Position numbers and translations under genes: made by a program. Positions 11,629 through 20,206 of a DNA stretch of 20,206 bases are shown piece by piece. Each line of letters starts with the position of its first letter. Position 1 is the stretch's first letter. The notes under the pieces were generated by a model. It worked only from the letters and a program-made list of their open reading frames with translations, had not been told where the DNA came from and did not search any database. This DNA comes from a virus. The stretch covers positions 1-20,206 of the IMG/VR virus record IMGVR_UViG_3300033571_003951. One strand, 5' to 3'.

Positions 11629-13027
11629 CATAGAAACGCAAAAACTATTTTTGCGTATGATGATAACAAATGCTGAACTCTATACAAGAGTTACTAACAT
11701 TATAAATCCATTAAATTTCGATAAGTCTTTAAGACCCGTTGCGGAGTTATTCAAAACACATTCAGAAAGTTATAACGTACTGCCAGACAAATCTCAAATA
11801 CTAGCAGTCACTGGTTTAGAGATAGATCCTATTGATGAGTTATCTGATGGTCATTATGAATGGTTCTTAGATGAGTTTGAAAAGTTTACTAAGAGGCAAG
11901 AACTTGAACGTGCAATTTTAAAAGCGGCTGACTTACTAGAAAAGGGTACATACGATCCGGTTGAAAAATTAATTAAAGACGCTGTACAGATTAGTCTACA
12001 AAAAGATATGGGTACTGATTACTTTCTAGATCCTAAAGGTAGACTTATGATATTAAAATCTAGCAATGGTCAAAATAGTACAGGATGGCCATGCATGGAT
12101 AGTAAATTATATGGTGGCTTCAATCGCGGAGAACTGCAAATATTCGCAGGAGGAAGTGGTTCAGGTAAATCATTGTTCATGCAAAATCTTGCAGTTAATT
12201 GGGTTCAAGCAGGATTGAACGGAGTTTATGTTACACTAGAACTTAGTGAAGGTCTTTGTTCTATGCGTATCGATAGTATGATGACAGATACTAGTAGTCG
12301 AGATATTTTCAAAAATATCGATGATGTAGAAATGAAGGTCAAGATGGTTTCTAAAAAAGCCGGAAAACTGCGCATAAAATATATGCCAGCACAAAGCACA
12401 GTCAATGATTTAAGAGCATATTGTAAAGAACTAGAAGTACAAACTGGCATGAAGGTTGATTTCTTGTGTGTTGACTATTTGGACTTGTTGATGCCGGTTT
12501 CTGCTAAAGTTAGCCCAAGTGATTTGTTTGTCAAAGACAAATATGTTTCTGAAGAATTGAGAAATTTGGCAAAAGAATTGAACGTATTATTCGTAACAGC
12601 GTCACAGTTAAATCGCAGTGCGGTAGAAGAAATAGAATTTGATCACAGTCATATTTCAGGTGGTATCAGTAAAATTAATACAGCGGATAATGTATTTGGT
12701 ATTTTCACAAGTCGTAGCATGCGGGAACGTGGTCAATATCAGTTACAGTTGATGAAAACTAGAAGCAGTTCAGGTGTTGGTCAAAAGATTGAACTAGCGT
12801 TTGACGTAGAAACTCTTAGGATCACTGACCCCAATCCTGAAGATTCTCAGCAGTTTAATAAACCCAAACCAAATGCTAATGAACTATTAAGTCAGCTTAA
12901 GGCAAAATCTACAGTCAATGACACAAATTCAGCTATACAGGAAACAGTACAACCTGAGACTAAACGAGTGGTGGCCGACGTGAATTCATCCAAATTGAAG
13001 GCACTTCTGAACAACCTAACTAAGTGA
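11615..13027 (+). CDS. 41: gp41-like replicative DNA helicase (DnaB family)
   Basis: 470 residues, close to T4 gp41 (475). RecA-like core: Walker A GGSGSGKS (179-186), LELSE (208-212), Walker B LCVDYLD (284-290), sensor glutamine in VTASQLNRSA (Q331), and a probable arginine finger at KTRSSSG (R383). The N-terminal 130 residues are helical like the DnaB/gp41 hexamerisation and primase-binding region; the C-terminal 60 are low complexity. The start is TTG, giving MVEYN as in gp41 (MVEI); no ATG is near. GAGG upstream (within 11600-11605) may serve as ribosome-binding site. It unwinds DNA 5'-3' at the fork with the primase. Confidence 0.92.
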   Translation: MVEYNIETQKLFLRMMITNAELYTRVTNIINPLNFDKSLRPVAELFKTHSESYNVLPDKSQILAVTGLEIDPIDELSDGHYEWFLDEFEKFTKRQELERAILKAADLLEKGTYDPVEKLIKDAVQISLQKDMGTDYFLDPKGRLMILKSSNGQNSTGWPCMDSKLYGGFNRGELQIFAGGSGSGKSLFMQNLAVNWVQAGLNGVYVTLELSEGLCSMRIDSMMTDTSSRDIFKNIDDVEMKVKMVSKKAGKLRIKYMPAQSTVNDLRAYCKELEVQTGMKVDFLCVDYLDLLMPVSAKVSPSDLFVKDKYVSEELRNLAKELNVLFVTASQLNRSAVEEIEFDHSHISGGISKINTADNVFGIFTSRSMRERGQYQLQLMKTRSSSGVGQKIELAFDVETLRITDPNPEDSQQFNKPKPNANELLSQLKAKSTVNDTNSAIQETVQPETKRVVADVNSSKLKALLNNLTK

Positions 13028-13033
13028 TAAATA
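13026..13033 (+). promoter_or_regulatory. T4-type late promoter motif (GATAAATA)
   Basis: One mismatch from TATAAATA, overlapping the TGA stop of the helicase gene. The predicted start near 13039 leaves a leader of about 15 bases before the ATG at 13054. It would let the following three genes be expressed late, apart from the early primase-helicase unit. Confidence 0.55.
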
Positions 13034-16579: not shown

Positions 16580-16587
16580 GATAAATA
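16580..16587 (+). promoter_or_regulatory. T4-type late promoter motif (GATAAATA)
   Basis: One mismatch from TATAAATA, 26 bases before the ATG at 16614. It lies in the 3' arm of a small hairpin (ATTTATC / GATAAAT, loop AGAA, 16569-16586) next to the stop of the previous gene. Confidence 0.55.
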
Positions 16588-16613: not shown

Positions 16614-17342
16614 ATGAAACTTACAGAATTTAACGCTAGACCAAGCACAGTCGCTAAGAAAGCTCTTAAAGAACATTTTAACACCAGTATTAATTTGGAT
16701 AAAATGTCTTTATATGACACAGAGCGTATGATGCGCAAGGTTAATACTTTGATGAACGAAATGCGTCAAAAAAGTAACGGACTAAACACCGAACAAAATC
16801 CAGCTTATTTAAAGTTGGTTTTTATGGAGCAAGCTCTGCAACATCATTATGGAGAACTTAGGTCCCTACCATTATATAATACTAGAATCGTATTAGAAAA
16901 TGAGGAAGTAGAAAAGTCCCAAGTTATTTTAGCTGCTCAAGAAATGGTAGACGCACTACAAAAAATGGTAGAACAAGTAAGCGATATGCTTGTTAAAGAA
17001 TTACCTGCTGTTGTCGATGGAGTCAATAGTGAAGTAGGTACTAACGAAGGTGAGCAATTTAATACAGCCGTTAGCGAAGCTTTAACATCACTACAGGCAT
17101 CATTAACACAAAGTAAAGGTACACTACAATCTTCATTAAATTCTATCACTGGTCAGGGTGGCGACATGGCAGGTCCTACTATGGATATGGGAACTGATGA
17201 ATTTGGCGATATGCCTCCAGAAGGCGGTGAAGATATGGATGCATTGGGTGGTGAAGAGCCTGATTCTGATCTTCCTGATCTACCAGAAGAGCCTGACGAG
17301 ACAGAACCTGTTGCTGGTGTAGGTCGTTCTACCCGTAAGTAA
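16614..17342 (+). CDS. Scaffold-like, helical and acidic-tailed phage protein
   Basis: 242 residues from ATG 16614; an upstream in-frame ATG at 16533 would run back through the preceding gene and the late promoter motif, so I reject it. Residues 1-200 are nearly all helix-forming, with a probable coiled coil at about 95-185 (repeated VDALQKMVEQVSDMLVK-type heptads). Residues about 205-235 are strongly acidic and Gly/Pro/Met-rich, and the end is basic (GRSTRK). This build resembles prohead core/scaffold proteins, but no sequence motif proves it; the role is inference. GGGA before the ATG is a weak ribosome-binding site. Confidence 0.72.
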   Translation: MKLTEFNARPSTVAKKALKEHFNTSINLDKMSLYDTERMMRKVNTLMNEMRQKSNGLNTEQNPAYLKLVFMEQALQHHYGELRSLPLYNTRIVLENEEVEKSQVILAAQEMVDALQKMVEQVSDMLVKELPAVVDGVNSEVGTNEGEQFNTAVSEALTSLQASLTQSKGTLQSSLNSITGQGGDMAGPTMDMGTDEFGDMPPEGGEDMDALGGEEPDSDLPDLPEEPDETEPVAGVGRSTRK

Positions 17343-17690: not shown

Positions 17691-17732
17691 AAAATAATTG
17701 TATTATAGGTCAAATCATAGTACAATTATTTT
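17691..17732 (+). repeat. 12-bp perfect inverted repeat containing promoter boxes
   Basis: AAAATAATTGTA (17691-17702) and TACAATTATTTT (17721-17732) are perfect reverse complements with an 18-bp spacer. The -35 (TTGTAT) and -10 (TACAAT) boxes of the exonuclease promoter sit in the two arms, so the site is symmetrical and could be an operator or a bidirectional promoter. Confidence 0.7.
17698..17726 (+). promoter_or_regulatory. Early sigma70-type promoter, leaderless
   Basis: TTGTAT (17698-17703), 17-bp spacer, TACAAT (17721-17726). The ATG at 17733 is exactly 7 bases past the -10 end, so the predicted transcript starts on the start codon. No Shine-Dalgarno. No terminator is seen after the exonuclease, so this transcript should read into the tail-fibre gene. 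Confidence 0.75.
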
Positions 17733-18419
17733 ATGTACATTCCCGACAAATTTAATTATATAAGCATCAATCGTGTCACTGAAAATGGTTCACGTAGATA
17801 CGCTACACCAGACGGTGAAAAACTTCCTAGTGTAACAACTATCCTTGACGCAACTAAGTCAGAAGAATCCAAAAAAGCACTAATGGAATGGCGTAACCGT
17901 GTAGGTCATAAACGTGCGCAAGAAATCACAACTGAAGCGGCGGGGCGTGGTACACGTATGCACAAGTTTATTGAGGATTATATCAAAGAAGGTGTGCTTA
18001 AAGAACCAGGTAGTAATCCTTACAGTATACAAAGTCATTTAATGGCAAAAAGTATAATTGAAAAAGGATTATGCAATTTAAATGAAGCTTGGGGAGTTGA
18101 AGTACCGCTTTATTTTCCAAAGGTCTATGCAGGAACAACTGACCTTTGCGGAGTTCATAACGGCGATGAAGCTATTATGGATCATAAACAAAGCAACAAG
18201 GTTAAAAAGCGTGAATGGATTGAGGACTACTTTATTCAATCTGCTGCTTATGCTACAGCACACAACGAAGTATACGGTACAAATATACGCAAAGGCGTTA
18301 TTTTCATGTGTACCGCAGATAATCAATATCTTGAATTTATCATTGAGGGAACTGAATTTGACAATTATGTAGGTAAATGGTTCCAACGTTGCGAAGAATA
18401 CTATTCAAAGTTCTTATAA
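17733..18419 (+). CDS. PD-(D/E)XK exonuclease
   Basis: 228 residues. Nuclease core: H77 in GRGTRMHKF, E123 in WGVEVPLYF, D137 in AGTTDLCG, then D150-H-K152 in IMDHKQS, and Q169 in YFIQSAAYA. This H/E/D/DxK/QxxxY order matches RecB/Cas4-type and MGME1-like single-strand exonucleases of the PD-(D/E)XK superfamily, except that the usual E-x-K is D-x-K, which the family allows. It probably processes DNA ends during phage recombination or degrades host DNA. It is a single-gene early unit placed among late genes. Uses CGT arginine codons more than its neighbours. Confidence 0.85.
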   Translation: MYIPDKFNYISINRVTENGSRRYATPDGEKLPSVTTILDATKSEESKKALMEWRNRVGHKRAQEITTEAAGRGTRMHKFIEDYIKEGVLKEPGSNPYSIQSHLMAKSIIEKGLCNLNEAWGVEVPLYFPKVYAGTTDLCGVHNGDEAIMDHKQSNKVKKREWIEDYFIQSAAYATAHNEVYGTNIRKGVIFMCTADNQYLEFIIEGTEFDNYVGKWFQRCEEYYSKFL

Positions 18420-18424
18420 TGGTA

Positions 18425-18432
18425 GATAAATA
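18425..18432 (+). promoter_or_regulatory. T4-type late promoter motif (GATAAATA)
   Basis: One mismatch from TATAAATA, 25 bases before the ATG at 18458. It overlaps the 5' arm of a start-codon hairpin; the predicted late start (near 18438) would leave that arm out. A TATAAT at 18434-18439 with TTCTTA 17 bp upstream is an alternative sigma70-type reading. Confidence 0.58.
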
Positions 18433-18459
18433 ATATAATCACAATAAAGATTATATTAT
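18430..18459 (+). repeat. 11-bp inverted repeat sequestering the tail-fibre start codon
   Basis: ATAATATAATC (18430-18440) and GATTATATTAT (18449-18459) are perfect complements with an 8-base loop. The AT of the start codon (18458-18460) lies in the 3' arm. In an mRNA read through from the exonuclease unit this hairpin would mask the start; in a late-promoter mRNA the 5' arm is missing. Confidence 0.68.
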
Positions 18460-19735
18460 GGCCATTTATCAGATTTCGAAAATTATCCACAGAACAGGTG
18501 CAAACATTGATTTGCCCCAACTAGACGTAGGGGAAATAGGTTTTGCTTCTGATGAACAACGTGTTTATATAGGAAATGATCCTAATATAGTGCCTCCTGT
18601 TACGGCCGGATCCACGACACAGACAGAAATCTTGACCACTGCTAGTCCATTAGACTTTTCAAGATTGAACGGATCCAGTAATGCTAGTTTAGATTTAAAT
18701 AGTCCTGAAAACGGACAATTGTTAGGGATTAATGTTGCAGCCAATATCACAACTGTTGTAAATGTTGGTGGCAATGCCGGCGGCGAAATCGATCTTGGAC
18801 AGATTAATGATGTTAAAATATCAGGTGGTGTCAATGGTTTCGTATTACAGACTGATGGAACAGGAAATCTAACATGGACTACAAATGGTTCATTAGTTTA
18901 TAAAATATCTGGATTCAGTGCGGCTAATGGTAGTAATTATTCTGAAGGGACAATAGTTACAACAAGCACCGACCACTTCTTTGGTACAGGTACCGCGGTT
19001 ACAATCAGTGGTGTTCTACCTTCTGGTGCTGTTAAAAGTAGTATAGAAACAGCAGGAGTTTCAGGTACAAATCAATTTTTCACACGAAGAATAAGCAATA
19101 CTACTTTTAGTATTCACGACGAATCTAATACCGCAGCAACTTCTAGTTTTGTGACATATAATCCATTATGGACTGGTTATACTGCAAACAGTGCAAATGT
19201 ACTTGGTCAAATTGCTCCGGTTGGTAATGCTGTTGCAGGGGGTAGTAATACACAAATTCAATTTAATGATGCAGGTACTTTTGGTGGCATTGGTAATTTA
19301 ACCTTTAATAAAGTATCCAGCGTGTTAACAGTAACAGGTAATGTAAACGCTACAAACGTTATAGGTAATATAAGCGGAAACTTCAATGGAGCTATTGGTT
19401 GCACAACTCCTAATTTAGCTACTTTTTCAAGTGTAACTGTAAACAACAATGCAAACGTTGTTGGTAATATTTCAGCTGGTAATATAAGTGTCGGCAACTT
19501 ATCAGTATCATCAAATATAACAGTAAGCGGAAACGTAATCGCTTCAAACGTGTTTGTTAGTGAAGATGTATTTTCTAATAATGCTACTATAACTGAAGTA
19601 GCAACTGCAAACGGTTTTAACCTATTATATGATTCAGGTTCGAATGTTTGGAGTATGTTTGCAAATGCAGACGGCATTTATCTTGCTGACAGCGGTACTG
19701 GTAATACGTATCAGATAAATCTCACTCAAGTTTAA
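18458..19735 (+). CDS. Tail-fibre-like virion protein
   Basis: 425 residues. The N-terminus (LPQLDVGEIGFASDEQRVYIGND, about residues 19-41) follows the pattern of major-tropism-determinant-like N-domains of phage tail fibres. Residues about 265-400 are a run of short beta repeats rich in N, V, S, G with recurring GNISxGN/NVxGN/NASNV units, as in trimeric fibre shafts. A C-terminal GNTYQINLTQV closes it. No chaperone or lyase domain is obvious, so it is short for a receptor-binding fibre and could be a fibre base, whisker or adaptor. Start-codon hairpin and late motif upstream indicate late-only translation. Confidence 0.8.
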   Translation: MAIYQISKIIHRTGANIDLPQLDVGEIGFASDEQRVYIGNDPNIVPPVTAGSTTQTEILTTASPLDFSRLNGSSNASLDLNSPENGQLLGINVAANITTVVNVGGNAGGEIDLGQINDVKISGGVNGFVLQTDGTGNLTWTTNGSLVYKISGFSAANGSNYSEGTIVTTSTDHFFGTGTAVTISGVLPSGAVKSSIETAGVSGTNQFFTRRISNTTFSIHDESNTAATSSFVTYNPLWTGYTANSANVLGQIAPVGNAVAGGSNTQIQFNDAGTFGGIGNLTFNKVSSVLTVTGNVNATNVIGNISGNFNGAIGCTTPNLATFSSVTVNNNANVVGNISAGNISVGNLSVSSNITVSGNVIASNVFVSEDVFSNNATITEVATANGFNLLYDSGSNVWSMFANADGIYLADSGTGNTYQINLTQV

Positions 19736-19749: not shown

Positions 19750-19789
19750 TCTCTCTATATGGGAGACTTATGCAGTTCCCCAACTGCGT
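19750..19789 (+). other. Two tandem hairpins in the leader of the 19827 gene
   Basis: Hairpin 1: TCTCTC / GGGAGA (19750-19755, 19761-19766) with loop TATAT and one G-T pair. Hairpin 2: GCAGTT / AACTGC (19772-19777, 19782-19787) with loop CCCC. Neither has a T tract, so they are not terminators. Hairpin 1 shares CTATATGG with the leader hairpin at 15136. Confidence 0.5.
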
Positions 19790-19826
19790 AGGACCTAGAA
19801 CGTCTAACTTAAGGAGATGAAACAAA

Positions 19827-20206
19827 ATGGGACGCCCTTTAAAGATAGCAAAAACAAACGCAGCAGCAGATCCAGATGGAGTAACGGATCAAGGTTTTCC
19901 TAATGACGGTACTACAGATAACGGTTACACCACAAACGCAGTTGGTGTAGTAGGTGGTATTCGTGCCATAGCATTGTTAGGAAGTGTATGCATAGAACAA
20001 AATTGGTATGGTACTTATTATGCTAGTACAGGTTCAGCCGTAATAAGTTCACAAAACGCAGGAATATTGAATAATACTGAATTAGAAAATGATTCATTAA
20101 TATATTATGATGGTACATATGTAGGAACTGTTTCAAGCACTGGCGCAGTAATAAGCATGACCACTGCATCAACCGCAGCATCTACTGATAGAGTAACAGT
20201 TGATGA
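19827..20206 (+). CDS. Probable virion protein, 3'-truncated by window edge
   Basis: First 126 residues of a gene that runs past the window end. A strong Shine-Dalgarno (AAGGAG at 19811-19816) precedes the ATG. The product starts MGRPLKIAKT, then a DPDGVTDQGFPNDGTTDNG segment and a region rich in Ser, Thr, Gly and Ala, typical of structural phage proteins; I recall MGRPLKIAKT-type starts in marine phage virion proteins. Structured leader and late motif point to high late expression. No membrane segment in the visible part. Confidence 0.75.
   Translation, partial: MGRPLKIAKTNAAADPDGVTDQGFPNDGTTDNGYTTNAVGVVGGIRAIALLGSVCIEQNWYGTYYASTGSAVISSQNAGILNNTELENDSLIYYDGTYVGTVSSTGAVISMTTASTAASTDRVTVD

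Follow-up and report, generated by a model that had tools for sequence, protein, structure and literature searches.

A perfect hairpin links a late promoter motif to a start codon

In the window, by which we mean the whole 20,206-nucleotide stretch of viral DNA analyzed here, a late promoter motif runs into a hairpin that takes in the start codon of a probable tail-fibre gene. This raises the question of whether the hairpin locks translation on RNA that enters from upstream and is removed when transcription begins at the late promoter. The elements concerned are as follows.

18425–18432, plus strand: late promoter motif, GATAAATA
18430–18440, plus strand: 5′ arm of the hairpin, ATAATATAATC (fold and covariation)
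18438, plus strand: predicted late transcription start, placed by T4 spacing 6 nt past the motif, so that 3 nt of the 5′ arm remain
18441–18448: hairpin loop, ACAATAAA
18446–18449, plus strand: weak Shine-Dalgarno-like AAAG at the border of loop and 3′ arm
18449–18459, plus strand: 3′ arm of the hairpin, GATTATATTAT, including the A and U of the start codon (fold and covariation)
18458–19735, plus strand: probable tail-fibre or receptor-binding gene, 425 aa, with its ATG in the hairpin
18464–18470, plus strand: ATTTATC, codons 3–5, complementary to GATAAAT at 18425–18431 (folds; possible outer helix)

An earlier note had described an 11-bp perfect hairpin over the start codon and a late motif overlapping its 5′ arm, and both descriptions are correct. 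All 11 pairs between 18430–18440 and 18449–18459 are Watson–Crick, the A and U of the AUG (18458–18460) form the last two pairs while its G lies just beyond the stem, and the last three bases of the motif (ATA) are the first three of the 5′ arm. The Shine-Dalgarno-like AAAG lies mostly in the loop, so that the stem consists of promoter end, spacer, and AUG and holds no strong Shine-Dalgarno sequence; relatives are purine-rich at −14 to −9. Folding of 18425–18475 gives −10.5 kcal/mol (z = −4.0), a value equalled by 0/200 shuffles, and an RNA beginning at 18438 is predicted to be unstructured (0 kcal/mol). The possible outer helix between GATAAAT and ATTTATC is restricted to the window phage and its nearest relatives and is absent where codon 4 is Ile or Val.

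The window holds two perfect stems of at least 11 bp with loops of 3–12, whereas its 40 dinucleotide shuffles contain 0.075 on average. The other such stem (11 bp, 1511–1539, loop 7) lies within the ORF at 1015–2049. No Rfam family matched the start-codon hairpin. Sites within one mismatch of TATAAATA are present at chance level in the window (66 vs. 69.6 expected); the motif by itself is thus no proof, and comparative evidence carries the case.

The locus belongs to a family of uncultured T4-like viruses

An exonuclease gene immediately precedes the fibre gene.

17733–18419, plus strand: exonuclease gene, 228 aa, PHROG 298 (phrog_298, E = 3e-55)

The earlier label of tail fibre for the downstream gene is probable, its basis being a weak match to Mtd_N (PF18454, E = 5e-5) that falls below the curated cut-off; the gene has no PHROG match. 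Identity of the exonuclease to any named phage protein stays below 50%, and neither a nucleotide search of the phage collection nor a tblastn search with the fibre N-terminus gave a match, so no cultured phage was found with this locus. Relatives of the exonuclease in other, mostly jumbo phages (023Pt_psg01, Atu_ph07, 121Q, XbC2) are followed by different genes.

Relatives were collected as 80 viral contigs found via the exonuclease, another 80 via the fibre N-terminus, and a further, overlapping 80 via a distant exonuclease. Together with the window this gave 241 sequences, 237 of them readable, which reduce to 71 distinct elements. Of the 80 loci retrieved by the fibre N-terminus, 79 show the exonuclease immediately ahead of the fibre gene; the remaining one is cut by the contig end.

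Compensatory change maintains the hairpin

Two parts of the element are invariant in all 71 distinct elements: the ATAAATA of the motif and the T preceding the AUG. The 237 loci share a common register in which TATG contributes its TAT to pair with the motif's ATA, and pairing continues inwards, and the A and U of the AUG are paired at one register in all 71 elements. Pairing with at most one mismatch reaches motif position 12 or further in 66 of the 71, and in two more with one bulged base; some groups have an A–C mismatch or a bulged T close to the AUG. Past the common register, the arms differ widely between groups, including GTGTAA/TTACAC, GTATAATC/GATTATAC, GTTTAATC/GATTAAAC, GATGTAAT/ATTACATC, GATATAAC/GTTATATC, GTTGTAC/GTACAAC, GTGTGA/TCACAC, and others.

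Every variable pair from 4 to 10 changes on both sides, and each occurs as at least three standard pair types. When replacements at these pairs were mapped on an exonuclease DNA tree with 142 tips, we found 95 two-sided replacements that keep the pair, 9 one-sided replacements that keep it, and 29 breaks, although recombination or homologous exchange among phages could inflate the number of independent double changes. In controls in which the partner columns were slid by 1–3 positions, two-sided replacements fell to 0–28, breaks or mismatches were more frequent, and the paired fraction was 0.26–0.51. The search for compensatory base changes in the arms, put forward earlier as a check on the hairpin, is therefore strongly passed. 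On this comparative evidence the hairpin is kept by evolution across a large, uncultured family of T4-like viruses.

The position of the arm relative to the promoter is also constrained. In most elements the 5′ arm stops at motif position 14–16 (sd 1.4), compared with an sd of 4.0 for loop length, and the expected T4-type late start at motif position 13–14 falls about where the arm ends. Full elements fold with a mean of −9.7 kcal/mol, vs. −0.4 kcal/mol when cut at the T4-type start site. The arm therefore spans the interval from promoter to start site, as expected if read-through RNA has to carry it and late RNA has to lack it.

In many relatives, early-type and late promoter motifs flank the exonuclease gene

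Four large relatives (223–364 kb) encode a late sigma factor of the gp55 type (phrog_12791, E about 1e-71 to 1e-74; also phrog_234 matches), as a T4-type switch calls for; the window is a 20-kb fragment without this gene. In three of these relatives, GATAAATA lies 12–45 nt upstream of 44/841 ORF starts, compared with a mean of 3.8 over 168 letter permutations of the motif.

The earlier note had also placed the exonuclease in an early transcription unit. Near-consensus sigma70 promoters in many relatives fit this; the match in the window itself is weak.

17698–17726, plus strand: sigma70-like (early-type) exonuclease promoter, TTGTAT-17-TACAAT, 6 nt ahead of the ATG (8/12, not significant alone)

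Among 93 distinct upstream regions, a promoter of the form TTGACA-16/18-TATAAT adjoining the exonuclease ATG matches at 12/12 positions in 19 and at 11/12 in 11, while shuffled regions gave no match above 10/12. The −10 box mostly ends 6–11 nt ahead of the ATG. At the site of the window's 8/12 match, many relatives carry TTGACA-17-TATAAT (12/12), and from these relatives we infer an early-type exonuclease promoter in the window as well. In one group of relatives the promoter is palindromic (TTGTA...TACAA), and the region would itself form a hairpin ahead of the ATG. We considered the palindrome at 17698–17726 as a second start hairpin and rejected it, as the −35 and −10 boxes TTGTAT and TACAAT explain it.

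Between exonuclease and fibre gene the earlier claim of a missing terminator agrees with our finding of no terminator-like site in 18300–18460.

A probable promoter-gated lock and its alternatives

Taken together, the hairpin, its overlap with the motif, the compensated pairing, the late sigma gene and early-type promoter of the relatives, and the lack of a visible terminator make it very probable that the element is a promoter-gated start-codon lock of the kind found at T4 e, soc, and 49. RNA that enters by read-through, whether out of the exonuclease gene or from farther upstream, would contain both arms, and the hairpin would pair the A and U of the AUG together with the spacer, so that 30S ribosomes would seldom initiate. 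Late in infection, RNA polymerase carrying the gp55-type factor would start at GATAAATA. The resulting 5′ end, which we infer to lie near the top of the 5′ arm, would leave an mRNA without most of that arm, unstructured and translated. The presumed benefit is that a virion adhesin is kept off in the early phase.

The e and soc switches of T4 are textbook cases for which, to our knowledge, comparative support is limited to close relatives of T4. The long transcripts of gene e are structured and the late ones are not, and the structured transcript yields about 100-fold less lysozyme (PMC3014915). The e/soc precedent invoked in the earlier note is therefore real, and it is visible in the T4 sequence: read from NC_000866, e, soc, and 49 have a layout like that of the fibre locus. 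In T4 e, too, the late promoter (TATAAATA in T4) is in the 5′ arm, and motif bases and pre-AUG bases form the base of the stem (AATACCT/AGGTATT in T4). T4 e, however, is served by two late promoters and its stem includes a strong GGAGG, whereas the fibre locus has the spacer and AUG in the stem and a weak AAAG at the loop edge, and it serves a probable tail fibre in a lineage far from T4. At soc and 49 the late motif likewise lies upstream of or overlaps the 5′ arm of a hairpin over the Shine-Dalgarno or AUG, and the fibre gene is a homologue of neither. Motif bases of gene 49 pair with those immediately ahead of the AUG, as here, while the arm of soc begins past the motif and takes in both Shine-Dalgarno and AUG. 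In a T4-type switch the late start lies inside or 3′ of the 5′ arm, and the long RNA holds the Shine-Dalgarno, the AUG, or both in a helix; the fibre locus has the first arrangement if T4 spacing applies, and the second through its paired A and U and its compensated 11-bp stem. Such a switch also presupposes a gene within a longer early or middle unit that lacks a terminator, and the fibre gene may lie in one.

A related possibility is a general insulator: the hairpin would shield the gene from all read-through, chiefly that of upstream late transcripts, and have little role in the early phase. A copy of GATAAATA at 16580 precedes the virion-protein gene at 16617, and no strong terminator was seen between that gene and the fibre gene, so late read-through into the fibre gene is possible too. 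The predicted lock would hold back every read-through transcript, among them late RNA from 16580, and not early mRNA alone. Roughly one distinct upstream region in three lacks a promoter immediately before the exonuclease, yet most such cases retain the hairpin, so that an exonuclease promoter and a fully paired stem are not significantly associated (P = 0.14, Fisher's exact test); this also counts against a promoter-gated lock. Against the insulator, the hairpin is lost completely only where the early promoter is missing as well. The motif lacks a stable hairpin in one clade (L371, L373, L376, L393, L397), in which the exonuclease start abuts the preceding gene and no promoter is present, whereas the hairpin is lost in 0/84 distinct cases with an exonuclease promoter, though confinement of the losses to a single clade makes them one event. 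The T4 precedents also involve early and middle RNA. We regard a mainly late-acting insulator as possible, if rather unlikely.

Hairpins near start codons may also serve as protein-bound sites, on RNA or DNA, for a RegA-type repressor or for an autoregulating fibre protein or endonuclease. Such sites are known from T4, where RegA, gp32, and gp43 bind translational operators (PMC3014915), and homing endonucleases can bind operators that overlap late promoters (PMC2988022). Here, arms and loop vary freely outside the motif and TATG while pairing is kept, which argues against a sequence-specific site and is still compatible with a binder of structure only; as a replacement for a passive lock we find this improbable. 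It is very improbable that the hairpin instead aids expression, by stabilizing the mRNA or by bringing the Shine-Dalgarno nearer to the AUG, as the activating hairpins of T4 genes 25 and 38 do (PMC3014915): the AAAG is in the loop here, but the 25/38 hairpin lies between Shine-Dalgarno and AUG, the A and U of the AUG are paired in 71/71 elements, and a 5′ arm tied to the late promoter would leave the late mRNA without the structure. A chance palindrome, conceivable insofar as motif ATA is trivially complementary to start TAT in an AT-rich window, is refuted by covariation across the 71 distinct elements and by the rarity of such stems in shuffled windows.

A further point against the promoter-gated lock is that other late-motif genes of the window downstream of replication genes (e.g., 13026–13033) have no such hairpin, so that the lock would be gene-specific. 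Start-codon hairpins are not a general property of late genes in these phages: when 105 late-motif/ORF pairs from four sequences were folded and ordered by opening-energy difference, the fibre genes ranked 2, 5, 6, and 7, and a few other candidates appeared. Candidate start or Shine-Dalgarno hairpins on other late-motif genes were seen in the large relatives L088 (minus strand, 11700), L084 (minus strand, 19468), and L121 (minus strand, 2529), for example TATAAATACTCTCAGGAGTATATAATG, and these are possible further cases of a late-promoter hairpin switch.

A design like that of T4 e, soc, 49, and I-TevI thus stands in a distant lineage, on a different gene class, and with strong compensatory evolution, which suggests that T4-type phages have repeatedly turned to a start hairpin to deal with a late gene that follows an early one. 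The natural variants with mismatched, bulged, or lost stems offer material on how much start-codon pairing is needed.

Homing endonucleases lie behind the hairpin in some relatives

Four relatives (L045, with L419 alongside it; L064; L231; L420) carry an ORF for a GIY-YIG homing endonuclease exactly between hairpin and fibre gene. L231 came from a pattern scan for endonuclease cases, which is unspecific, and L420 from a protein search.

L045, 6731–7423: GIY-YIG ORF whose TGA overlaps the fibre start codon
L064, 1814–2395: GIY-YIG ORF whose TGA overlaps the fibre start codon

The ORF takes the hairpin ATG as its start codon and ends in a TGA that overlaps the start of the fibre gene (ATGA; GTGA in L231), and both of two ORFs tested match phrog_314. 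All these loci keep hairpin and motif, L045 with one mismatch, a retention that speaks for the lock. The stop/start overlap suggests that fibre translation is coupled to that of the endonuclease.

Hairpins with a late promoter are known to restrain homing endonucleases on early polycistronic RNA, as for I-TevI and mobE in T4 and Aeh1 (PMC2988022), and a GIY-YIG ORF behind a late-promoter hairpin resembles that arrangement. Unlike the case of I-TevI and mobE, the predicted lock here is that of the fibre gene, and the endonuclease has captured it, its stop codon overlapped by the start of the fibre. We put forward, as an evenly balanced proposal, that a gene-specific start-codon lock on an adhesin has been under selection throughout this uncultured T4-like lineage and was several times captured by homing endonucleases at the locked AUG, coupling through ATGA or GTGA placing both genes under one late-only switch.

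A freshwater-2 RNA follows the fibre gene

Downstream of the fibre gene, the window contains an Rfam freshwater-2 RNA (RF02980, cis-regulatory, 56.6 bits; 19750–19829, plus strand) as leader of the gene starting at 19827. A late motif of the form (A/G)ATAAATA ends about 8–10 nt ahead of this RNA in the window and in 6/6 matching relatives (L018, L031, L037, L046, L059, L073). Because the motif precedes RF02980 in every one of these sequences, it appears that freshwater-2 serves T4-like phages as the 5′ leader of a late mRNA.
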